A stretch of DNA of 41,505 bases, taken from the NCBI GenBank assembly GCA_945889645.1, contig CAMDCA010000013.1, forward strand, positions 1 through 41,505, given 5' to 3'. The stretch is from Rhizobium sp. Q54 (GTDB taxonomy: Bacteria; Pseudomonadota; Alphaproteobacteria; UBA2966; CAIVPW01). The notes under the pieces are model-generated. The model had not been told where the DNA came from. It saw only the letters and a program-made list of their open reading frames with translations, and did not search any database. Shown here piece by piece: positions 903-12,986 of the stretch; within the stretch, counting starts at the first letter, position 1; each line of letters starts with the position of its first letter. The position numbers and the translations under genes were made by a program.

Positions 903-1670
903 CTAGAAAGGCGCGATGATGTCCAACAGCTGCTGCCCGTAGCGCGGCTGCTGCACGTCGGTGATCTGGCCGCGGCCGCCGTACGAGATGCGGGCCTCGG
1001 CGATCTGGGTGTGCTGGATGGTGTTGGTGGCGGAGATGTCCTCCGGCCGCACGATGCCGGCCACCGTCAGCTCACGTACCTCGAAATTCACGCGCACTTC
1101 CTGGCGGCCCTGGATGACCAGGTTGCCGTTCGGCAGCACTTGGAGAACCATCGCGGCGACGGTCAGGTTGATGGTTTCGTTGCGCTGCACCGCGCCATCG
1201 CCCGCGAAGTTGCCAGCACCTGTGGCGCCGAGCAGCGCGCCCGGCGCGACAGCCTCGGGCAGGACTTTGCCGAGCTGTGTCTCCAGACCGAACAGGTTCG
1301 GAATGCCGAGAGTCTCATCCGCGGTGCGTGTCCGCGTCGTGGTGTTGGCGACGTCGGCCTTGTCGTCGATCGACACGGCCACGGTCAGAATGTCGCCGAC
1401 CCGCGCCGCGCGTTGGTCGCGGAAAAATGCCTTTGCGCCCGGACGCCACAGAGAGTTGGCAAGGCGTGGCGCCTGGTCGGGCGCCGGCAGGGGCGTGGTC
1501 ACCGGACGGTAGTCAGGGCGCTCGGTCGGGTTGGCGACCGCGGCCATCACTGGCGGCTCACCGATCTGGGCAATGCGGTCGATGGTGTTGGCGCAGCCGC
1601 CAGCAGCGAGCAGCAGGGCGCCGGCCCAGGGGCGGAGGCGGCTCGGCGTCAACTTGAAAGTGCGCTTCAT
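903..1670 (-). CDS. flgH: Flagellar L-ring protein FlgH
   Basis: FlgH forms the outer-membrane L ring around the distal rod. The protein is 255 aa. The N-terminus is a lipoprotein signal with the lipobox LAAGGC, lipidated Cys at residue 26. The middle and C-terminus contain the FlgH family blocks: SLWRPGAKAFFRDQRA, a VGDILTV segment, LPNGNLVIQGRQEVRVNFE near residues 180-198 and RPEDISATNTI. It is the last gene of the minus-strand flgF-flgG-flgA-flgH operon, 23 bases after flgA. No flgI follows; the next gene is the convergent dksA, so the P-ring gene must lie outside the window. Confidence 0.96.
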   Translation of the reverse strand: MKRTFKLTPSRLRPWAGALLLAAGGCANTIDRIAQIGEPPVMAAVANPTERPDYRPVTTPLPAPDQAPRLANSLWRPGAKAFFRDQRAARVGDILTVAVSIDDKADVANTTTRTRTADETLGIPNLFGLETQLGKVLPEAVAPGALLGATGAGNFAGDGAVQRNETINLTVAAMVLQVLPNGNLVIQGRQEVRVNFEVRELTVAGIVRPEDISATNTIQHTQIAEARISYGGRGQITDVQQPRYGQQLLDIIAPF

Positions 1671-1693
1671 GGGGACCCTTCCGTCGTGCGGAA

Positions 1694-2650
1694 CTAGCGC
1701 GCGTTGGCTTGTTGGATCGGCCGGCGCGTGGTGATGCGGACGCGACCCGGCCCTTCGACGACGCCCTCGATCGTTGTGTGCGTCTGCGTGTTCATCACCT
1801 GGACGGTGTCGCCCAGGCCGCCGTTGGCCAGAGCGCGACCCATCGCGGTGAGCTGAATTCCCGGCGCTTCGACGATCATGGTGACGTTGGAACCCTTGGC
1901 GACGACGATCGGTGTCTGCACGTCGGATACGCGCACCGGCTCGTTGGGACGAATGGCGCGGCGCGGCGCGTAGCCGACCAGTTGGTCGGGCTGCAGGGCG
2001 ACGCCCTGGGTGAGGCGATCGGTGCGCATGTCGGCCCAGGCGATATCGGTGTCGCGGATGACGACGCCGATGGCGACCGTGTTGACCAGCACGGGGATCT
2101 GGACGATTTCGTTGACGCGGCCGCGCACCACCGTGCGCTGCGCGTCGGTGCCGTTTGCGGGCGCGACAATGGTGGCAGAGAACGTTGCGCGAGCGACGTC
2201 GTAGTCCAGGTTCTCGATCTTTACGGTGAGCGGCGCGTTGCGCGGCACGGTGAGCGAGAAGTTGGCGTTAGGAATCTCGGCCCGCAAGCTGCGGCCGAAG
2301 GCGCGTCGCGCCAGTTCTTCGTCGAGGGCGTTGAGCACGACGTCTCGTGGAACGACTGCGGCGGAGCGTTCCACAATGATGCCGCGCGCGCCGCGCGCAT
2401 CCCAGGTAACGCCGTTTTCCTTGGCCAGCATCATGACCTCGGCGACGTTGAGCATGGTGCGTGCACCGGGCGCAGGGGAGGCCGCGACGCGGACGGCGGC
2501 ACCCGGGCCGCGCGTGCCGGTGACATCGCCGAGCGTGATCCACGGACCGTCGACGGTGACGTTGCCGCCGGCGACCTGGGCGGCGGCCGGAACGGCAGCC
2601 CAGCTCAAAGCGACGATCGCGGCGGCTCGCAGAACGCGCAGGATGGTCAT
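1694..2650 (-). CDS. flgA: Flagellar P-ring assembly chaperone FlgA
   Basis: FlgA is a periplasmic chaperone that assists FlgI in forming the P ring. The protein is 318 aa, longer than the roughly 220 aa of E. coli FlgA but usual for alphaproteobacterial forms. It begins with a Sec signal peptide (hydrophobic core IVALSWAAVPAAAQ, cleavage near residue 25). The C-terminal half contains the SAF/ChapFlgA domain, with IRDTDIAWADMRTDR, a PNEPVRVSDV segment and GSNVTMIVEAPGIQLTAMGR. The gene starts 20 bases after flgG, with GGGAAG as ribosome-binding site. Confidence 0.95.
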   Translation of the reverse strand: MTILRVLRAAAIVALSWAAVPAAAQVAGGNVTVDGPWITLGDVTGTRGPGAAVRVAASPAPGARTMLNVAEVMMLAKENGVTWDARGARGIIVERSAAVVPRDVVLNALDEELARRAFGRSLRAEIPNANFSLTVPRNAPLTVKIENLDYDVARATFSATIVAPANGTDAQRTVVRGRVNEIVQIPVLVNTVAIGVVIRDTDIAWADMRTDRLTQGVALQPDQLVGYAPRRAIRPNEPVRVSDVQTPIVVAKGSNVTMIVEAPGIQLTAMGRALANGGLGDTVQVMNTQTHTTIEGVVEGPGRVRITTRRPIQQANAR

Positions 2651-2670
2651 GGCTGCTTCCCCTATTCGGG

Positions 2671-3456
2671 CTAACGCAGGGTGGTCACGGTGCGCATCAT
2701 TTCGTCCGATGCGGTGATGACCTTGGAGTTCATTTCGTAGGCGCGCTGGGCGGTGATCAGCGACGTGATTTCCGACACCGGGTTCACGTTCGAGGTTTCG
2801 AGGAAGCCCTGGCGGATCACGCCGAAGCCGGGATCGCCCGGGGTGCTGACGTTGGCGGCGCCGGAGGCCGGCGTTTCCAGCAGCAAGTTGTCGCCGATCG
2901 ATTCCAGGCCTGCCTCGTTGGCGAACACGGCGAGTTCGAGCTGGCCGAGGTTGGTCAGGTCGGTCTGGCCGGCCAGCTTCGCCAACACTTCACCGGTCTG
3001 GTTGATGGTGACGTCCACGGCTTCCTGCGGAATGGTGACGCCGGGCTGCACGACGAAGCCGTCGCCGGTCACCAGCTGTCCGGTGGGCGAGCGTTGGAAT
3101 GAGCCAGCGCGGGTGAACGCGTCCTGGCCGTCCGGTAGGGTGACCCGGAAGTAGCCCTTGCCTTCGACTGCGACGTCGAGCGGGTTCTCGGTCGCCGTCA
3201 GGTCGCCTTGGGTGTTGATGCGGTAGACGCCCGACACCTTGACGCCGACGCCGATCTGAATGCCCGTGGGTACGATGGTGCCGGCGTCTGACGATGGAGC
3301 GCCGACGCGCCGCAAGTCCTGGTAGAGGAGATCCTGAAACTCCGCCTTCTGGCGCTTGTGCGCCGTCGTGTTCATGTTGGCGATGTTGTTCGAGATCACC
3401 TCGACGTTGGTTTGCTGCGCGAGCATACCCGTCGCTGCGATGCTGAGGGACCGCAT
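2671..3456 (-). CDS. flgG: Flagellar distal rod protein FlgG
   Basis: FlgG polymerises into the distal rod of the basal body. The 261-aa protein has the rod/hook N-terminal motif LAQQTNVEVISNNIANMNT (residues about 13-31), the central D1 segment ENPLDVAVEGKGYFRVTLPDG, and the C-terminal helix LITAQRAYEMNSKVITASDE, which packs with the N-terminal helix. The length matches the family (about 260 aa). A purine-rich AAGGGA precedes the ATG. It follows flgF by 31 bases in the same operon. Confidence 0.97.
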   Translation of the reverse strand: MRSLSIAATGMLAQQTNVEVISNNIANMNTTAHKRQKAEFQDLLYQDLRRVGAPSSDAGTIVPTGIQIGVGVKVSGVYRINTQGDLTATENPLDVAVEGKGYFRVTLPDGQDAFTRAGSFQRSPTGQLVTGDGFVVQPGVTIPQEAVDVTINQTGEVLAKLAGQTDLTNLGQLELAVFANEAGLESIGDNLLLETPASGAANVSTPGDPGFGVIRQGFLETSNVNPVSEITSLITAQRAYEMNSKVITASDEMMRTVTTLR

Positions 3457-3487
3457 GGTCGTTTCCCTTCCTATGAATCTTCGTTGA

Positions 3488-4219
3488 TTAGCCGCGCAAC
3501 TGCGGAAGGCGTTCCGCCATCTTGCGTTGCAGTTCGTGTTCGGTCTCGATCAGTTTGTTCGACGCTTGGTAGGCGCGGCTGGTCTCGATCATTGCCGCCA
3601 GTTCGATGACCGGTTCGACATTCGAGCGTTCAAGCATGCCCTGCAGCGTGCGGGCCTTGGGCGCCACTTGCTCGGGTGAGTCGGTGGTGAAGTAGCCGCC
3701 GCCGCGTCGCCGCAGCGTCTGCAGGTTGTCGAAGGTCACCAGGGCGAGGCGCACAGGCGGACGGCCGCCGACGGTGAGGCTGCCGTCGCCGTTGACGATC
3801 AGAGGTCCGAGGGAAGGATCGGCGAGGATCGGGCGCCGGTTCTCGTCCAAGATGGCGTCGCCTTCGGCGCTCGCCAGATTTCCCTGCGCATTGATCGTCA
3901 GATGGCCGCCGCGCGTATAGGCGAGGTCGCCGGTCGCGGTCTGCGCGACCAGGAAGCCGTCGCCCTGCAGCCCGATGTCGAGCGGGTTGCCGGTGCGTTC
4001 GATGGGGCCTTCGCGGAAATTGATCAGCACGCCGAAGTCCTGGACGTAGGACAGCTCGCGCTGCGGCCCAGCCTTCATCAGGAACTGTTCGAACAGCGTC
4101 TGATTCGCCTTGTAGCCGGTGGTGCTGGTGTTGGCGATGTTGTGCGCGATGACATCCATCTGGCGTTGCAGCGCCATCTGGTGCGAAAGGGCGATATACC
4201 CGGTGTTGTCCATCGTCAT
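3488..4219 (-). CDS. flgF: Flagellar proximal rod protein FlgF
   Basis: FlgF is a proximal rod subunit. The 243-aa protein carries the flagellar rod motif MDVIAHNIANTSTTGYKA near residues 17-34, the family segment GNPLDIGLQGDGFLVAQT and the C-terminal SNVEPVIELAAMIETSRAY helix. It is shorter and more divergent than FlgG, as usual for FlgF. It is the first gene of the flgF-flgG-flgA-flgH operon, about 70 bases downstream of the inferred start of a sigma-54 promoter. ATG codons at residues 1 and 3 are both possible starts. Confidence 0.95.
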   Translation of the reverse strand: MTMDNTGYIALSHQMALQRQMDVIAHNIANTSTTGYKANQTLFEQFLMKAGPQRELSYVQDFGVLINFREGPIERTGNPLDIGLQGDGFLVAQTATGDLAYTRGGHLTINAQGNLASAEGDAILDENRRPILADPSLGPLIVNGDGSLTVGGRPPVRLALVTFDNLQTLRRRGGGYFTTDSPEQVAPKARTLQGMLERSNVEPVIELAAMIETSRAYQASNKLIETEHELQRKMAERLPQLRG

Positions 4220-4568
4220 GGCACGTCTCGCCTACTACTGCTGCTGCCCGGGCGGTCGGCTCGATCGCCGGACAGAGGAATCCTAAGAACGCCCCAGGGG
4301 TGGTGCATGGCGCGTGCCAGAGTTAATGGCGGCAGTTTTACGGGTGTCTCGGAGGACCAAGAGGGCGCCATGCCTGCCGTCCGGACGCCCGGCGCCCGGC
4401 AGAACCTGCCGGGATTTGGCCGATCAGGCCCCGCGCGCGGGGGCGACACATCCGGCAAACCTTCTCTTAACCATCCGGCGCTAGCCTCCTGATAGCTTGG
4501 AATCGGGACGCGCCCCTTGGGGGTGACGAATCGCGCCCCCGCGCGGACGTTCAGGATTGGGGCGAGCC
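4220..4568. other. Divergent flagellar intergenic region
   Basis: These 349 bases separate flgF (minus) from fliL (plus). They contain the sigma-54 promoter for flgF and several GC-rich inverted repeats such as CGCGCGGGGGCG-type runs near 4430. A TTAACCAT sequence at about 4467 resembles a CtrA half-site but lacks a properly spaced partner. I see no convincing promoter for fliL and no credible gene. Confidence 0.5.
4304..4319 (-). promoter_or_regulatory. Sigma-54 (RpoN) promoter of the flgF operon
   Basis: On the minus strand the sequence TGGCACGCGCCATGCA matches the -24/-12 consensus TGGCAC-N5-TTGCA at all specified positions except one (A for the first T of the -12 element). The invariant GG and GC doublets have the correct spacing. 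The expected start lies near 4292, about 70 bases before the flgF ATG. Rod and ring genes in alphaproteobacteria are commonly RpoN/FlbD-dependent, so the position fits. Confidence 0.75.
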
Positions 4569-5105
4569 ATGGCCGACGACGAAGAAGAGCAGAAGTCCGG
4601 CGGCGAAGCCGAAGGCGGCGACGAGGAGGGTGGAGGCGGCGGGCGGAGCTTCAGTCCGCTCAAGATCGTTTTGTTCGTCGGCTTGCCGGTGCTGTTGCTG
4701 ATTGGAGCCGGCGCGACGGCGTACTTTATGGGTTGGCTGAACTTCTTCGGCGGTGGCGCAGAGGAAGCGGCGACCGAGGAGCACGACGCGGCCCCCGTCG
4801 CCGCCGCGTTCGTCGATCTGCCGCGCATGACGGTCAACCTCGCCTCGACGGGCAACCAGCGTGCCTTGCTGCAGCTCACCATGTCGCTCGAGTTGGCCAA
4901 CGCCGCCGTGAAGCCGCAGGTCGAAGCGGCGCTGCCGCGCGTGATCGACCAATTCCAGGTCTTTCTGCGCGACCTGCGCGTCGAGGACCTTGCCGGCACC
5001 CGCGGCACCTATCGTTTGAAAGAAGAGATGCTTGCGCGCGCCAACGCCGCTCTGGCACCGATCAAGGTGTCCGACGTGCTCTTCCGCGAAATGCTGGTTC
5101 AGTAG
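4569..5105 (+). CDS. fliL: Flagellar basal body-associated protein FliL
   Basis: FliL is a single-pass inner-membrane protein that surrounds and stabilises the stator. From ATG 4569 it is 178 aa. The N-terminus is acidic and Gly-rich and cytoplasmic; a transmembrane helix follows at about residues 35-60 (IVLFVGLPVLLLIGAGATAY). The periplasmic FliL domain has FVDLPRMTVNLAS and LLQLTMSLELAN. A TTG at 4557 in frame would add 4 residues, but the ATG gives the usual MADDE start. It opens the plus-strand fliL-fliM-DUF6468-motE-TPR operon. Confidence 0.95.
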   Translation: MADDEEEQKSGGEAEGGDEEGGGGGRSFSPLKIVLFVGLPVLLLIGAGATAYFMGWLNFFGGGAEEAATEEHDAAPVAAAFVDLPRMTVNLASTGNQRALLQLTMSLELANAAVKPQVEAALPRVIDQFQVFLRDLRVEDLAGTRGTYRLKEEMLARANAALAPIKVSDVLFREMLVQ

Positions 5106-5147: not shown

Positions 5148-6242
5148 ATGGCCGACGACGACAAGAAGCCCGATGCGCCCGAGGACGACAAGATGGCCCA
5201 GGAATGGGCGCAGATGGCGTCAGGTGGCGGGAGCGGAGCGGCAACGGGCGGAGGCGACTCCGCACCGTCGGACTCTTCCAGCCGGGTTCTCGACCAGGCG
5301 GAAATCGACAGCCTGCTCGGCTTCGGCGGCGCCGGCGACTCGATGCCGGAGCAGTCCGGCATCCGCGCCATCGTCAACTCGGCGCTGGTGTCCTACGAAC
5401 GTCTGCCGATGCTCGAGGTCGTGTTCGACCGCCTCGTGCGTCTGATGTCGACCTCGTTGCGCAACTTCACGTCCGACAACGTCGAAGTCTCGCTCGACAC
5501 CATTACGTCGATCCGCTTCGGCGACTATCTGAATTCGATTCCGCTGCCCGCCATCCTGAGCGTGTTCCGCGCCCTGGAGTGGGACAACTTCGGCCTGATC
5601 ACGGTCGACAGCTCGCTCATCTATTCGATCGTCGACGTGCTGCTGGGCGGCCGCCGCGGCACCGCCACGATGCGCATCGAGGGCCGGCCCTACACCACCA
5701 TCGAGCGCAATCTAGTCGAGCGCATGGTCAGCGTGGTGCTGGAAGACCTGAGCGCTGCCTTCGAGCCGCTTTCGCCGGTGACCTTCAGCTACGACCGCCT
5801 GGAGACCAATCCGCGCTTCGCCACCATCGCGCGCCCGGCTAATGCCGCCATTCTGGTCAAGCTGCGCGTCGACATGGAAGACCGCGGCGGCCGCTTCGAA
5901 ATCCTGTTGCCCTACGCGACGCTCGAGCCGGTCCGCGAACTGCTGCTGCAGCAGTTCATGGGCGAGAAGTTCGGCCGCGACACGATTTGGGAAACCCACT
6001 TGGCCAACGAGTTGTGGAGCACCGAGGTCGACCTGCATGCCATTCTCGACGAGCAGACCATGTCGCTGAAGGACGTGATGGATTTCACCGTCGGCAACAC
6101 ACTGCTGCTCAACGCGCATCCAGACTCGGTGGTGCGCCTGGCGTGCGGCGGCGTGCCGTTGATGCGCGGCAAGATGGGCCGCGTCGGCGACCACGTCGCC
6201 ATTCGCGTCGTCCAGGGTCTGCACAAGCCAAGCGAACAATAA
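5148..6242 (+). CDS. fliM: Flagellar motor switch protein FliM
   Basis: FliM forms the middle layer of the C ring and binds phosphorylated CheY to switch rotation. From ATG 5148 it is 364 aa. After a low-complexity Gly/Ser N-terminus comes the CheY-P binding motif LDQAEIDSLLGF (about residues 46-57), then the CheC-like middle domain (YERLPMLEVVFDRLVRLMS, FGDYLNSIPLPAILSVF) and a C-terminal SpoA domain (VDLHAILDEQTMSLKDVMDF, RLACGGVPLMRGKMGRVGD). The ATG is preceded by AGGGGA. An in-frame upstream start at 5115 is less likely. It lies 42 bases after fliL. Confidence 0.97.
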   Translation: MADDDKKPDAPEDDKMAQEWAQMASGGGSGAATGGGDSAPSDSSSRVLDQAEIDSLLGFGGAGDSMPEQSGIRAIVNSALVSYERLPMLEVVFDRLVRLMSTSLRNFTSDNVEVSLDTITSIRFGDYLNSIPLPAILSVFRALEWDNFGLITVDSSLIYSIVDVLLGGRRGTATMRIEGRPYTTIERNLVERMVSVVLEDLSAAFEPLSPVTFSYDRLETNPRFATIARPANAAILVKLRVDMEDRGGRFEILLPYATLEPVRELLLQQFMGEKFGRDTIWETHLANELWSTEVDLHAILDEQTMSLKDVMDFTVGNTLLLNAHPDSVVRLACGGVPLMRGKMGRVGDHVAIRVVQGLHKPSEQ

Positions 6243-6363: not shown

Positions 6364-7008
6364 ATGACGCTTGAGCCAGCCGTCGGTGTCTTCCTGGATG
6401 GACTGATCGCCGTGCTGCTGGTGGTGACGATCACCACCGGCTTGTTCCTCAACCGCCGTATCGAACGCCTACGCAGGTCGACGCGCGACATCAACACGCT
6501 GGTTGGCGGATTTGACAAGGCGACCGCCCGGGCGCGTTCTGGCATCGAGACGCTGCGCAAGACCCTCACCGAAAGCGGTGAGCAATTGCAGAATCAGATC
6601 GACACCGCCCGCAGCCTGCGCGACGACCTCAAGCAGATCGCCATCGCCGGTGGCCGCATCGCCAACATCGAGCCGCCGCGCCCGGCGCCCAAGGCGCCGC
6701 GGCCCAAGGCACCCATCACCGCCGAACCCAAAGGCATGCCGCGCGCCGAGCCGCCTTGGGCCGAACTGGGGCGTGACGAGGACCGCGAGCCAGCCCGCGT
6801 CGAACCCATGCGTCCCGCCACGCAGAAGGCCGAAGGCCGTCCTGGCCTCACCAAGCGCGCCGAGAAGCCCAATTTTGCAGGCCCGGCCCGCGCCGTGGTC
6901 GGCCAGACCTTGAACCGCAAGACCGCGGCCGCCATGGCCCAGGAAGCCACCAGCGAGGTGTCCGAAGTCGAACGCGAGTTGCGCGAACTGCTCCGCAACG
7001 TACGTTAA
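6364..7008 (+). CDS. DUF6468-type flagellar operon membrane protein
   Basis: A 214-aa protein between fliM and motE. It has one N-terminal membrane segment (about residues 8-28, LDGLIAVLLVVTITTGLFL), then an arginine-rich stretch and a predicted coiled coil (about 29-100, with heptad-like RSGIETLRKTLTESGEQLQ). A long Pro/Ala/Lys-rich linker leads to a short acidic C-terminal helix (SEVERELRELLRNVR). Gene order and architecture match the alphaproteobacterial family annotated as DUF6468, whose role in motility is not established as far as I know. The ATG at 6364 has AGGGGT upstream; an upstream in-frame start at 6286 is less likely. Confidence 0.8.
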   Translation: MTLEPAVGVFLDGLIAVLLVVTITTGLFLNRRIERLRRSTRDINTLVGGFDKATARARSGIETLRKTLTESGEQLQNQIDTARSLRDDLKQIAIAGGRIANIEPPRPAPKAPRPKAPITAEPKGMPRAEPPWAELGRDEDREPARVEPMRPATQKAEGRPGLTKRAEKPNFAGPARAVVGQTLNRKTAAAMAQEATSEVSEVERELRELLRNVR

Positions 7009-7064: not shown

Positions 7065-7685
7065 ATGCGCATTCGCCTGCTACCGGCTACGGTCGGACTC
7101 GCCGCAATCTTTTTCGCTGTGAAGGCCGTTGACGTCTGGCGCGGCTCTGCCGGCGTTCTCGGACCCAGCATCTTCGCGGCCGTAACGGTCTCGCCGGCCA
7201 AGGCGCAAGCGGCGCCGCCCGCCGCCCCGGCACCCGCGACCGCTGCGCCGGGCCAGATCGTCTTCACGCCGGCCGAACTCGACATGCTGCAGAACCTCAA
7301 GATGCGCCGCGAGGAACTGGACGAGCGCGAGCGTGAGATCGACGTGCGCACCAACCTGCTCGTCGTCAGCGAGCGCCGGGTCGAGGAGCGCATCGCCGAG
7401 CTCAAGAAGGTCGAAGAGACTATTCGCGGCCTCCTGGTGCAGTACGACAAGCAGCAGGAAGAGCAGCTGGCGGCGGTGGTGAAGATCTATGAGGCGATGA
7501 AGCCCAAGGACGCCGCCAATATCTTCGACCGCCTGCAGATGCCGGTGCTGCTCGAGATCGCCGAACGCATCAAGGAGCGCACCATGGCGCCGATCCTGTC
7601 AGCCATGAATCCGACGGTGGCCAACGCTCTGACCATCGAGATGGCGACCCGGCGGACCCTGCCTGCCACGGGCGCGCCGCTCTAG
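7065..7685 (+). CDS. motE: MotE-like flagellar motor chaperone
   Basis: A 206-aa protein with an N-terminal membrane anchor or signal (LLPATVGLAAIFFAVKAVD), an Ala/Pro linker, a charged coiled coil (about residues 70-140, EELDEREREIDVRTNLLVV) and a C-terminal MgtE-N-like domain (VVKIYEAMKPKDAANIFDRL, ILSAMNPTVANALT). This is the layout of MotE, a periplasmic chaperone for MotC described in rhizobia, and of related FliG/MgtE-fold proteins. GGGGAAA precedes the ATG. Its place after fliM and the DUF6468 gene supports a motor role. The specific partner in this organism is inference. Confidence 0.82.
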   Translation: MRIRLLPATVGLAAIFFAVKAVDVWRGSAGVLGPSIFAAVTVSPAKAQAAPPAAPAPATAAPGQIVFTPAELDMLQNLKMRREELDEREREIDVRTNLLVVSERRVEERIAELKKVEETIRGLLVQYDKQQEEQLAAVVKIYEAMKPKDAANIFDRLQMPVLLEIAERIKERTMAPILSAMNPTVANALTIEMATRRTLPATGAPL

Positions 7686-7779
7686 GCCCCGCAGCGGTTG
7701 CGGGTGGTTTGAAGCGACCGTCACTGCGCCCGCGATGTTCGCTTTACCACCCGGTTCAAAGAGTCTAGGTAGGTCCTTG

Positions 7780-10700
7780 ATGACGGGCAAACCCTGGCTC
7801 TCGGCATCGTGGCTGCGCGCCTGCGCGCTGGCCTGCGTGCTTGCTGGCTTTGCCTCGGCCGCGCTCGTCGGCTGGGTGCCTGCGGCGCTGGCCGACCCCG
7901 TCACCGTCCGGACCACGCCCAATGCCGGTTTTGGCCGCATCGCCTTTGGCTGGCCGGCGCCGGTCGGGCACACGGCCGACCTGCGCAACAATACCCTGAC
8001 GTTGACGTTTGACCGGCCGGTCCAGGTCGACCTGTCGCGCCTCGCCGCGGCATTCCCCGGCTACCTCGAAGCTGCCCGCTTGTCGCCCGACGGCCGCTCG
8101 GTGGTGCTGGAGCTGACCAAGCACTTCCTCTACCGCTCCTATCCAAGCGGCACCGAGGTGTTGGTGGACTTGCTGGGGCAGGGCATCGAGGTCGCCGCGG
8201 CAGCGCCGCCCGCAGCGGTTGCAGTGCCACGCGCTACGCCGACACCCGCACCCGCACAACAGGCCGCAACGCCTCCGGCCGCGACTGCGCCACGCCCGGC
8301 CGCGACGCCGGCACCCGCGCCCACGACGGCGCCAGCAACCGCCGCGCCCGCGACTGCGATCCAAGGTCCGGCGCGCGTCGGCACCGCGCCAGTGCCGTTG
8401 CGCATCGGCTCGCACGATGGCTACGACCGCATCGTCTTCGACTGGACGGTCGACGTGCAGTACACCGCCGAAGGCGGGGACGGCCGCATCACCATCGACT
8501 TCGCACGCGGCGACGGGACCGATCTGACGCCGCTGACGCGCGGCGGACTTCCCAGCGTGCAGCGCGCTACTGCCTCGGTGGCCAACGGCCACACGCTGGT
8601 CGTGCTCGACGTTCCGCCCGGCGCACGCCTGCGCCACTTCCGCAGCGACACCAAGGTTGTCGTTGACGTGCTCGACGCCGCAACCGCGGCAACGACTCCC
8701 GCCGCACCGGCGCAGACTGCTGCCCGCACGACGCCGGCACCCACCGTTACCGCTCAGGCCGCGCCGCGCGCCACGCCTGCGGCGCCAGCCACGGCCACGC
8801 CGATACCGCCGGCCGCCGCGACGCCGCGGCCCGCAACGCCGGCACCTGCCGCGACGCGCCCGGGCATCGGTGAGCCGGTTGCCGTCACCTTCTCTGCGCC
8901 TGACCGTGGCACCGGCCGCATCGCCTTCAAGTGGCCGCGCGTTGCCGGCATGGCCGCCTTCCTACGTGCCGGCTACCTGTGGGTCGTCTTCGACGGCGTC
9001 GGCAACCCGACCATGCCCGCCATCCCGGAAGAACTCAGCGGCGTCCTATCGCTGGCCGAGCGCGTGCCGGCCGACGGCGCCACGGCGTTCCGCTTCCAGG
9101 TGGGCGAGGGGTTCTTCCCGGCGATCACCCGCACCGACCAGACCTGGACCATCGACCTGCTGCCTGACCCGCCGCCGCTGGCCAGGCCGGTAGACATCCT
9201 TCGCCAGAGCAGCGCCGACGTTGGCGCGGTGGTGGTCTTGGCGCTGGCCGAATCGACCGGCGCCTTCCAGGTCCGTGATCCCGAAGTCGGCGACATACTC
9301 GACGTCATTCCGGTGCGCACGGCGCGGCACGGCATGGCCGAGACGCATTCATTCGTTCAGTTCCGCCTGTTGCAGACCTCGCAGGGCGCGGTGGTGGAGC
9401 GCCTCGACGATCGCATCAAGGTTGCCGCCTTCGCCAACGGCGCCACCATCACCGGCGGCGGCGGCCTGGTGGTCACCCCGGTCGCCAACGGAACGCGCCT
9501 GACGGCCGGTGTGCCGGTGCAGCGTGCCGATGCTGCGACCGGCCCGCCCCCGCGGCCCAAGCCCGAATTGCTCAAGCTGGCGGAGTGGCACGAAGCGCCG
9601 CAGCCGCTGTTCTACGACAACGTCAAAGCGTTGCAGTATGCCGTCGCCGTCGCCGAGCCCGAGGCGCGCACCGAGGGCCGGCTGCGGCTGGCTGGGTACT
9701 ACCTGGCGAACCAATTTTATCCCGAGGCGAGCGGCGTCCTCGCCTTCGCCGCCGAGATGGACTTGGGCCTGATGGACAATCTGCAGTTCCGGGCCATGCG
9801 CGGGTTCGCGCAGCTGCGCCAGGGCCATACCAAGGACGCCGCCGTCGATCTGCTGCTCGGCACCTTCGATGGCAATCCGGAGATCGCGGCGTGGCGCGGC
9901 GTGATGTTCGCCATGGACCGCAACTGGCCGACGGCTAAGTTCGCCTTCGGGGTCGCTGGCGATATCTACCAGGGCTACCCGCCGGTGATCGCGACCGAGG
10001 TCGCCTTGTGGAAGGGCCAGACCGCGCTCACGTCGGTCGACATGCCGATGCTGCAGTCGGTGATCGCCGGCCTGGAGACGTCGCCGCCGCCGGAGGGCCA
10101 CAAGCTCGTCGTGCAGGCGGATCTCCTGCGCGCCCAGGCCTACGCATTCATCGATGCGATCCCCGACGCCCTGCGCCTCTACAACACCGTCGTCGATTCC
10201 AGCGTGCTGCCGTACTCGGCCCAGTCCCGGCTCTACCGCTCGCAGTTGCTGGTCAAGACCAAGGGCGCGACGCCGGAAGCGGCGGCCGCCGATCTCGACA
10301 AGCTGCGCTTCGTGTGGCGCGGCGACGATTTCGAGTTCCGTCTGCTGGTGGAACTCGGCAACCTGTACCTGCAGTTCAAGGACTACCGCAACGGCCTGAC
10401 CGCGCTGCGCCAAGTGGTGTCGCTCTATCCCGACCTGTCGCGCACCGAGGGCATCGCCCAGCGCATGAATACGGTGTTCGCCGACCTGTTCCTGCGCGGC
10501 GAGTCCGAGCAGCTCGTGCCGGTATCTGCCTTGGCGCTGTACTACGATTTCCGCGAATTGACGCCGGTCGGCATCGATGGCGACGAGATGGTGCGTCGCC
10601 TGGCCGACCGCCTCTTCTCAGTCGATCTGCTGCAACAGGCGGCAGAACTTCTCGAGTATCAGGTGCAGTTTCGCCTGCGCGCCGGCTCCGAGGACAAGGC

Positions 10701-11286
10701 CACCATCGCCGCGCGCCTTGCCGCCATTTACCTGTTCGCCCGCCAGCCGCAAAAGGCGCTCGAGACCCTCACGGTGAGCCGCACGCGCTCGACCAACGAG
10801 GTGCTCAACCGCGACCGCGCCCAGCTCGAGGCGCGGGCTTTGGCCGAACTCAAGCGCTTCGACGAGGCCCTCGCCGTGCTGGCGAGCGACAATTCCCGCG
10901 ACGGCCTGCTGCTGCGCGGCGACGTCCAGTGGCGGGCGCAGAATTGGACCGCCGCAGCACGCTCGTTCGACACCTACCTCGGCGACGCTTGGCGCAACGA
11001 CACTGTCCTTACGGTGGACGACCGCCGCCAGGTGCTGCGGACCGGCGTCTCGCTGGTCCTGGCCAACGACAAAGTGGGCCTCACCCGCCTGCGCGACCGC
11101 TATCACACCAAGATGTCCACCACGCCCGACGGCGATGCGTTCGACATCATCACCGACCAGACCAACCCGGGAACCATCTCGTTCCGCGAGGTGGCCGCGA
11201 AGGTTGCCCAGATCGATACGCTGGACTCGTTCCGCCAGAGCTACCTGGGTCGCGTCAAGTCGGGCCAGGTCGCCGCGATCAACTAA
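7780..11286 (+). CDS. Large secreted protein with three AMIN-like modules and TPR repeats
   Basis: A 1168-aa protein that closes the fliL operon. From ATG 7780 (TAGGTAGG upstream) it has a signal peptide ending near WVPAALA (about residue 38). Three beta-rich modules follow, each with a similar opening: GRIAFGW (about residues 40-137), DRIVFDW (205-300) and GRIAFKW (367-465). Long Ala/Pro/Thr linkers (137-205 and 300-367) separate them. They resemble AMIN-type cell-wall or secretin-associated domains. From about residue 594 to the end the protein is helical with TPR-like units (for example RLAGYYLANQFYPEASGVL, LLVELGNLYLQFKDYRNGL). I do not know a named function. The context suggests a periplasmic scaffold that links the motor or basal body to peptidoglycan, which is inference. 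Confidence 0.85.
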   Translation: MTGKPWLSASWLRACALACVLAGFASAALVGWVPAALADPVTVRTTPNAGFGRIAFGWPAPVGHTADLRNNTLTLTFDRPVQVDLSRLAAAFPGYLEAARLSPDGRSVVLELTKHFLYRSYPSGTEVLVDLLGQGIEVAAAAPPAAVAVPRATPTPAPAQQAATPPAATAPRPAATPAPAPTTAPATAAPATAIQGPARVGTAPVPLRIGSHDGYDRIVFDWTVDVQYTAEGGDGRITIDFARGDGTDLTPLTRGGLPSVQRATASVANGHTLVVLDVPPGARLRHFRSDTKVVVDVLDAATAATTPAAPAQTAARTTPAPTVTAQAAPRATPAAPATATPIPPAAATPRPATPAPAATRPGIGEPVAVTFSAPDRGTGRIAFKWPRVAGMAAFLRAGYLWVVFDGVGNPTMPAIPEELSGVLSLAERVPADGATAFRFQVGEGFFPAITRTDQTWTIDLLPDPPPLARPVDILRQSSADVGAVVVLALAESTGAFQVRDPEVGDILDVIPVRTARHGMAETHSFVQFRLLQTSQGAVVERLDDRIKVAAFANGATITGGGGLVVTPVANGTRLTAGVPVQRADAATGPPPRPKPELLKLAEWHEAPQPLFYDNVKALQYAVAVAEPEARTEGRLRLAGYYLANQFYPEASGVLAFAAEMDLGLMDNLQFRAMRGFAQLRQGHTKDAAVDLLLGTFDGNPEIAAWRGVMFAMDRNWPTAKFAFGVAGDIYQGYPPVIATEVALWKGQTALTSVDMPMLQSVIAGLETSPPPEGHKLVVQADLLRAQAYAFIDAIPDALRLYNTVVDSSVLPYSAQSRLYRSQLLVKTKGATPEAAAADLDKLRFVWRGDDFEFRLLVELGNLYLQFKDYRNGLTALRQVVSLYPDLSRTEGIAQRMNTVFADLFLRGESEQLVPVSALALYYDFRELTPVGIDGDEMVRRLADRLFSVDLLQQAAELLEYQVQFRLRAGSEDKATIAARLAAIYLFARQPQKALETLTVSRTRSTNEVLNRDRAQLEARALAELKRFDEALAVLASDNSRDGLLLRGDVQWRAQNWTAAARSFDTYLGDAWRNDTVLTVDDRRQVLRTGVSLVLANDKVGLTRLRDRYHTKMSTTPDGDAFDIITDQTNPGTISFREVAAKVAQIDTLDSFRQSYLGRVKSGQVAAIN

Positions 11287-11936: not shown

Positions 11937-12986
11937 CTACGAGCGCTGGCCGTGCTCGTGGCGGTGGTGCAGGTCGGGGAAATGCGGGTGCGAGTGCCAC
12001 ATCGGTGCGTGGGTGTGTGTATGCGTGTGCGGCTGGCCCGCCGGATCGTTGGTGCCGTGGTGATGGTCGTGATGGGCGTCGTGCGTGTGCCGGTGCTCGT
12101 GGGCCAACGATTCATGCCGGTGCTCGTGGGCGTGCCGCTCCGAGAGGTGAAGGTACACGCCGACCGCCATCAGCGCGCCGGCGGCCAACAGTCGCGCCGA
12201 CGCCGGTTCGTCGAGGAGCAGCACGGCGACTCCCGCCCCAAGGAACGGTGCGGCGGCGAAATATGCGCTCGTGCGCGCCACCCCAAGCTGACGCAACGAA
12301 ATGACGAACAGCGCCAGACTGACGCCGTAGCCAAGAAACCCCACGACGAGTGCCCAGAGTACGGCCGGCAATGGCGGGAGCCCGGCTGTCAGCCCAAGCG
12401 CCAGCCCACAATTCACCGTACCTGCCGCGAGGCCTTTGAACGCAGTGATCTGCAGCGGATCGGCAAACGACAGTCGGCGGGTGAGGTTGTTGTCGATGCC
12501 CCAGGCCACACAGGCCCCGGCAATTGCCGCAGCGCCCCAACTGGCCGTCGCGCTGCCCTGCCAAGACAACAAGACGGCGGCCGCGAGGATGGCCACCGCC
12601 CCGCTGAGAACGCGGCGGCTTGTGGCTTCGCGTAGCACCACCCACGCGATCGCCATAGTAGCGAGCGCTTCGAGGTTCAGCAGAAGGGCGGCGGTTGATG
12701 CCGACGTGGCCGCGAGCCCGAACACCAGCAGGACGGGAGCGACTAGTCCGCCGCTGACGATGACAGCAGCCAGTGTCGGCAGGTCGGCGATGGATAGGGT
12801 TGCTTCCGGTGGCTGCGCGCTCACTCGTCGCCGCACTGCGTACAGAAGTGCGCATCCGGCGCCCGCCCCCAGGTACAACAGGCCCGCTAACGTGAGCGGG
12901 TGGACCTCGCCGAGCAGGCCCTTGGCCAGCGGTGTGCTGGCGCCGAACAGGGCTGCGGCTATCAGGGCAGGGAGGGCGGCACGCAC
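11937..12986 (-). CDS. EamA/DMT-family transporter with His-rich C-terminal tail
   Basis: A 349-aa membrane protein. About ten hydrophobic helices form two EamA repeats (MRAALPALIAAALFGASTPL at the start; GACVAWGIDNNLTRRLS and LRQLGVARTSAYFAAAPF in the second half). This is the drug/metabolite transporter fold. The last 67 residues (about 283-349) contain 24 histidines in HxH and HHxHHH patterns, a likely cytoplasmic or periplasmic sink for Ni, Co, Zn or Cu. A role in divalent-metal export is inference from the tail. The gene starts 31 bases after fliP on the same strand, so it probably shares the fliOP transcript, an unusual partner for flagellar genes. Confidence 0.88.
   Translation of the reverse strand: MRAALPALIAAALFGASTPLAKGLLGEVHPLTLAGLLYLGAGAGCALLYAVRRRVSAQPPEATLSIADLPTLAAVIVSGGLVAPVLLVFGLAATSASTAALLLNLEALATMAIAWVVLREATSRRVLSGAVAILAAAVLLSWQGSATASWGAAAIAGACVAWGIDNNLTRRLSFADPLQITAFKGLAAGTVNCGLALGLTAGLPPLPAVLWALVVGFLGYGVSLALFVISLRQLGVARTSAYFAAAPFLGAGVAVLLLDEPASARLLAAGALMAVGVYLHLSERHAHEHRHESLAHEHRHTHDAHHDHHHGTNDPAGQPHTHTHTHAPMWHSHPHFPDLHHRHEHGQRS

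Follow-up and report, generated by a model that had tools for sequence, protein, structure and literature searches.

MotK of Cereibacter sphaeroides is a periplasmic AMIN/TPR protein encoded beside motE, and its mutants have paralysed flagella; it binds MotE and MotB2, a MotK-sfGFP fusion is found at the flagellated pole and needs MotA/MotB for this localisation, and MotE is unstable when MotK is absent (PMC10954123). In Caulobacter, loss of FssB (CC_2058) gives a motB-like, stator-related paralysis (PMC7885107), and the flagella paralysed by loss of either protein are otherwise intact (PMC10954123, PMC7885107). MotK and CC_2058 have been listed by structure as homologues of the PflA type, PflA being a spoke composed of AMIN and TPR regions, and PflA-type proteins were reported to lack sequence-level conservation between phyla (PMC11870540). 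MotE, in turn, has been identified with the E-ring protein FlgY/FlbB (PMC11870540, PMC13023049). In two-hybrid tests the AMIN domain of PflA bound FliL and FcpO (PMC11870540), which indicates that peptidoglycan need not be the ligand of such a domain.

Gene organization of the locus

We analyzed a window of 41,505 nucleotides from Rhizobium sp. Q54 (contig CAMDCA010000013.1), in which fliL, fliM, a DUF6468 gene, motE and the gene of an AMIN-TPR protein follow one another in this order on the same strand. The features of this locus and of the AMIN-TPR protein are:

4557..5105, + strand: fliL
5148..6242, + strand: fliM, likely ATG start (ORF open from 5115)
6364..7008, + strand: DUF6468 gene, in the place of pflI in related operons
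7065..7685, + strand: motE, encoding a FlgY/FlbB-group E-ring protein (MgtE_N and FlbB matched weakly)
7780..11286, + strand: putative MotK/FssB-type AMIN-TPR protein, 1168 aa, stop included (ORF and homologues)
7780..7893, + strand: signal-peptide-like N-terminus, residues 1-38, ...AALA/DPVT (sequence reading)
7894..8181, + strand: AMIN-like module M1, residues 39-134 (hhalign, AlphaFold2, Foldseek)
8182..8385, + strand: Ala/Pro/Thr-rich linker of 68 aa, predicted disordered (AlphaFold2)
8386..8673, + strand: AMIN-like module M2, residues 203-298 (Pfam, hhalign, AlphaFold2, Foldseek)
8674..8868, + strand: second Ala/Pro/Thr-rich linker, predicted disordered (AlphaFold2)
8869..9168, + strand: AMIN-like module M3, residues 364-463 (hhalign, AlphaFold2)
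9184..9489, + strand: M4, a fourth beta domain that is not related to M1-M3, residues 469-570 (hhalign, AlphaFold2)
9553..11283, + strand: TPR-like alpha solenoid, residues 592-1168 (AlphaFold2, Foldseek, alignment)

The longest ORF starts at 7735, and the ATG chosen here, at 7780, has AGGTAGG just before it. A preliminary description of this DNA had reported a secreted 1168-aa protein encoded in the flagellar operon; the ORF and its translation bear out the product, and the gene does lie directly after fliM, the DUF6468 gene and motE. The protein also looks secreted, judging by eye from an N-terminus in which a hydrophobic segment is followed by small-x-Ala, ending at about residue 38, and may be exported to the periplasm.

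This gene order recurs among the homologous loci that were fetched. In all 96 that hold motE, this gene lies upstream of the AMIN-TPR gene on the same strand, with FliM upstream in 91 of them and FliL in 89. In 57 fetched loci, motB-like genes stand in front of the AMIN-TPR gene; the order in Terasakiella brassicae, for example, is fliL-fliM-DUF6468-motE-cheZ-motB-like-motB-AMIN-TPR gene. Published operons have pflI upstream of motE (PMC10954123), and since the DUF6468 gene sits in this very position, DUF6468, a Pfam family of unknown function that is present in Caulobacter too, probably corresponds to the flagellar positioning family PflI.

AMIN-like modules, an additional beta domain and a TPR solenoid

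Family alignments of the beta region (A1), the TPR region (A2) and MotE (A3) were built with homologues from related genomes and GTDB contigs, and slices covering residues 38-140, 200-301 and 364-468 were compared using hhalign, with slices of the TPR region as controls. The homology probabilities were 99.7% for M1-M2, 98.3% for M1-M3 and 96.0% for M2-M3 (99.85, 98.25 and 98.27%, respectively, in larger family alignments), against less than 0.2% for each module with the TPR control slices, showing that M1, M2 and M3 are homologous to one another beyond chance. In the AlphaFold2 model of the beta region, pLDDT exceeds 90 across M1-M3 and falls below 50 in the linkers, which sum to about 140 residues. 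A Foldseek search of the PDB with the modules ranked the AMIN domain of PilQ first (3jc8, E = 1.6e-5) and that of AmiC second (4bin, E = 0.016), and of these matches only PilQ 3jc8 falls below E = 0.001. The predicted fold of M1-M3 is thus the AMIN beta-sandwich, shared with the AMIN domains of PilQ and AmiC, although the host proteins differ, being a secretin and an amidase.

Against the Pfam AMIN models, the window protein scored 17-20 bits, below the curated cut-off of 27. Among 30 homologues, 28 had AMIN-like matches and 16 had AMIN matches at E <= 0.1, with a best E-value of 9e-9. PF24837 was tried as a marker of the family, and its matches were too weak for use. M4 was considered as a further AMIN copy and ruled out, as hhalign gave a homology probability below 1%.

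The TPR region was modeled by AlphaFold2 at a pLDDT of 88.6 as a solenoid of about 30 long helices, or roughly 15 hairpins. It is well conserved in alignment A2, with a mean column identity of 52% and the near-invariant motifs WRGDDFEF and FRELTPxGxxGDEM. A Foldseek search with this model placed chain 9hmf_K, from the Campylobacter jejuni flagellar periplasmic scaffold, at rank 12 (E = 8.7e-6, TM-score 0.26), and unrelated TPR proteins score alike, the matches including many unrelated TPR structures with TM-scores of about 0.3. The 9hmf_K match is compatible with a relationship to PflA without proving it. Searching PDB sequences with the TPR profile returned designed and generic TPRs only.

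The domain plan given in the preliminary description, three AMIN-like modules followed by a TPR array, therefore stands: the modules are supported by hhalign, by the AlphaFold2 fold, by the PilQ and AmiC matches and by Pfam matches in homologues, and the array was recovered as a solenoid. The module bounds it had proposed (40-137, 205-300 and 367-465) are refined to about 39-134, 203-298 and 364-463, and it had overlooked M4.

Distribution among flagellated Alphaproteobacteria

Profile searches of 192 alphaproteobacterial genomes gave matches to the TPR profile in 108, to MotE in 106 and to FliM in 112, all three being present in 100 genomes and none in 73. Co-occurrence of the TPR family with MotE (phi = 0.895) and with FliM (phi = 0.852) is strong, with the proviso that these values overstate independence because the sampled genomes are related. 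Most carriers matched the TPR profile at E < 1e-100, and FliM was found in 103 of the 108 carriers; three homologues (G051, G120 and G198) come from draft genomes in which no FliM was detected. Conversely, FliM matched clearly (E < 1e-30) in 105 genomes, of which 103 encode the AMIN-TPR protein, and the FliM match is weak (E > 1e-30) in seven of the nine FliM genomes that do not carry it.

At closer range, 21 nearer genomes were compared, and the AMIN-TPR protein and FliM were present in the same 12 and absent from the other nine, two of which belong to the window's own genus. The spread into non-flagellated relatives that would have spoken against a motor role was hence not seen, since presence tracks FliM (12/12 versus 0/9 in these genomes). 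A search of 249 genomes of Pseudomonadota gave 34 matches at E <= 1e-10, every one of them in Alphaproteobacteria.

Its recovery in 103 of the 105 genomes where FliM matches clearly marks this protein as a core part of the motor among the Alphaproteobacteria sampled, and not as a peculiarity of Cereibacter or Caulobacter. Where no sequence conservation had been seen for the PflA type (PMC11870540), the profile used here recovers its alphaproteobacterial representatives across the class, at E-values which imply that in Alphaproteobacteria sequence alone suffices to identify this spoke component.

Number of AMIN-like modules across the class

We counted modules in 114 non-redundant homologues with complete N-termini. 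Three AMIN-like modules were found in 81 of these, which makes the three-AMIN version the commonest form in the Alphaproteobacteria sampled, and two were found in 25, one in 5, none in 2 and four in 1; some of the low counts perhaps reflect diverged modules below the threshold. M3 is present in 112 of the 114, as is M4, and this nearly constant pair is adjacent, with a median gap of 6 residues. The M1-M2 and M2-M3 linkers, by comparison, are long, Pro/Ala-rich and variable across homologues. On a tree of the TPR region, built by a quick method and with many open forks, the number of modules clusters yet changes many times. As far as we found, neither the additional beta domain nor the prevalence of a multi-AMIN architecture in the class has been described in the literature.

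The N-termini of short forms of 655 and 696 aa gave no AMIN profile support, these being single sequences in which a diverged module is possible. Short relatives from other alphaproteobacterial flagellar clusters match the TPR profile, and in sphingomonad relatives located beside flagellar genes an AMIN module was undetectable, suggesting that AMIN modules are not indispensable everywhere. A search of annotated plasmids matched only sphingomonad short forms and, weakly, Azospirillum.

Comparison with MotK, FssB, PflA and MotC

The window protein has the layout of the MotK/FssB type, with an N-terminal AMIN-like part followed by a TPR-like solenoid and a gene downstream of motE in a fliL operon. 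MotK (Fla2) is periplasmic and, like the window protein, is AMIN-like at the N-terminus and TPR-like at the C-terminus and is encoded downstream of motE in a fliL operon; compared by description, it differs in its length of about 650 aa and its one reported AMIN-like domain, whereas the window protein has three such modules plus M4 and no motA between. FssB has a Sec signal, where the window protein has a signal-like N-terminus, and shares a TPR region and an AMIN-like N-terminal part (PMC7885107, PMC10954123), as well as its position beside CC_2059, the MotE/FlgY homologue (PMC11870540); published accounts mention only a single AMIN-like domain, and this likeness, too, is drawn from description. 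PflA of Campylobacter and Helicobacter combines an AMIN-like beta sandwich, a flexible loop and a long TPR solenoid (17 repeats reported) into a spoke that meets the E-ring (PMC11870540, PMC13023049), elements that also appear in the predicted structures of the window protein; in contrast to the latter, it has one AMIN domain, and its partners are PflB and a cage found only in Campylobacterota. Finally, rotation in Sinorhizobium meliloti requires MotC, a TPR protein of the periplasm that partners with MotE (PMC13023049), as the window protein would; MotC lacks an AMIN domain, in contrast to the three AMIN-like modules of the window protein.

From this shared place and layout, with MotK and CC_2058 known by description, we infer that the window protein is of the MotK/FssB type. 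The idea of an undescribed periplasmic scaffold of the motor, put forward in the preliminary description, was therefore right in kind as to the scaffold but not as to its novelty, as MotK (PMC10954123) and FssB (PMC7885107) have been published and equated with PflA spokes (PMC11870540). The gene is real, conserved and linked to the motor, its kind is known, and the multi-AMIN layout is the fresh detail.

A candidate periplasmic spoke of the flagellar motor

Taken together, we consider it probable that the AMIN-TPR protein is a MotK/FssB-type periplasmic scaffold, or spoke, of this alphaproteobacterial motor, which bridges the E-ring and the stators and is anchored by its AMIN modules. The protein would be exported through Sec to the periplasm, where its TPR solenoid would connect the E-ring, which MotE forms around the MS-ring, with the part of the MotA/MotB stator units that lies in the periplasm, while its three AMIN modules, carried on flexible linkers of Pro and Ala, would attach it to peptidoglycan, to a neighbouring protein such as FliL, or to both. 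The stators would thus stay docked and active, and loss of the protein should paralyse the flagella with their assembly unaffected. The contact of the TPR region with MotE and MotB is modeled on the published interactions of MotK, and that of the AMIN modules with peptidoglycan or FliL on the AMIN fold, the FliL option coming from the PflA two-hybrid data; the same partners, a spoke geometry and these AMIN ligands are what we infer for the window protein.

The Caulobacter motor offers another possible location, as it shows, besides the E ring, a 30 nm outer-membrane ring and a 40/55 nm cogwheel of 13-fold symmetry, and the composition of the outer-membrane ring and cogwheel was unknown when they were described (PMC7534056). 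The AMIN-TPR protein might build this cogwheel or an outer-membrane ring near the P/L rings rather than a spoke at stator level, with its AMIN modules level with the peptidoglycan and the teeth formed by the solenoid; these structures had no assigned composition (PMC7534056), and a long solenoid with AMIN modules on some 140 residues of linker could span the planes. We regard this as unlikely, since loss of FssB or MotK causes the same kind of paralysis as a motB mutation and MotK requires MotA/MotB for its localisation (PMC7885107, PMC10954123), both of which point to the stator level. The instability of MotE in the absence of MotK (PMC10954123), together with the designation of MotE as a chaperone of MotC in S. 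meliloti (as cited in PMC13023049), could also be read to mean that the protein serves chiefly to chaperone or stabilise MotE or the stator and is no lasting structural part. The stator-dependent presence of MotK-sfGFP at the flagellated pole (PMC10954123) argues against such a role, for which several AMIN modules would moreover be costly, suggesting anchoring instead, and we find this reading very improbable.

Weak NCBIfam matches to generic envelope TPR families could suggest that a general envelope protein of the BamD, CpoB/YbgF, PorW/SprE or pilus type came to lie in the operon by chance. These scores of the window protein are far below the curated cut-offs, and we rejected the families as candidates; the protein is present almost exactly where FliM and MotE are, the gene comes after motE on the same strand in every one of the 96 testable loci, and the class and phylum searches indicate a family confined to flagellated genomes, so that chance placement is hardly credible.

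With the spoke as the preferred reading, the repeated modules allow a tentative extension, which we put forward with considerable doubt. In most flagellated Alphaproteobacteria, each spoke protein may touch the wall or FliL at several points through its two or three AMIN modules, which are strung on disordered linkers (81 of the 114 complete homologues have three; range 0-4). How far the scaffold reaches and how firmly the stators are anchored would then depend on the number of modules and the length of the linkers, and one of the unassigned periplasmic rings of the Caulobacter motor may be explained by this protein. The AMIN-TPR protein is accordingly a defined candidate for these rings, and its family offers a way to ask whether AMIN copy number tunes stator anchoring.

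Additional observations

A flagellar cluster with the same gene order was identified on the Erythrobacter aureus plasmid NZ_CP031358.1 (379306-395030, locus L148), where it encodes a 549-residue relative annotated as "hypothetical protein". In the window, genes of the flgF, flgG, flgA and flgH type lie divergently in front of fliL (903-4219), and the layout in L148 is the same.

Two MotB-like genes in tandem immediately precede the AMIN-TPR gene in 46 loci, as in Terasakiella brassicae (L028:7310-8952). The second MotB-like protein has the channel aspartate in all 46; the first never has Asp at this position, where 44 loci show Ser, Gly or Ala. From these residues, the Asp-less paralogue could be unable to carry protons, perhaps serving an asymmetric stator or acting as a spoke adaptor; we found no description of this Asp-less/Asp tandem in the literature. 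One MotB was detected in the window's genome, on another contig (G000:C4:16142-16294, locus L150); it has the aspartate and stands without an adjacent Asp-less partner. Just past the flagellar operon, positions 12000-12140 of the window form a stretch rich in CAC/GTG repeats, which would be His-rich if the reverse strand were read.
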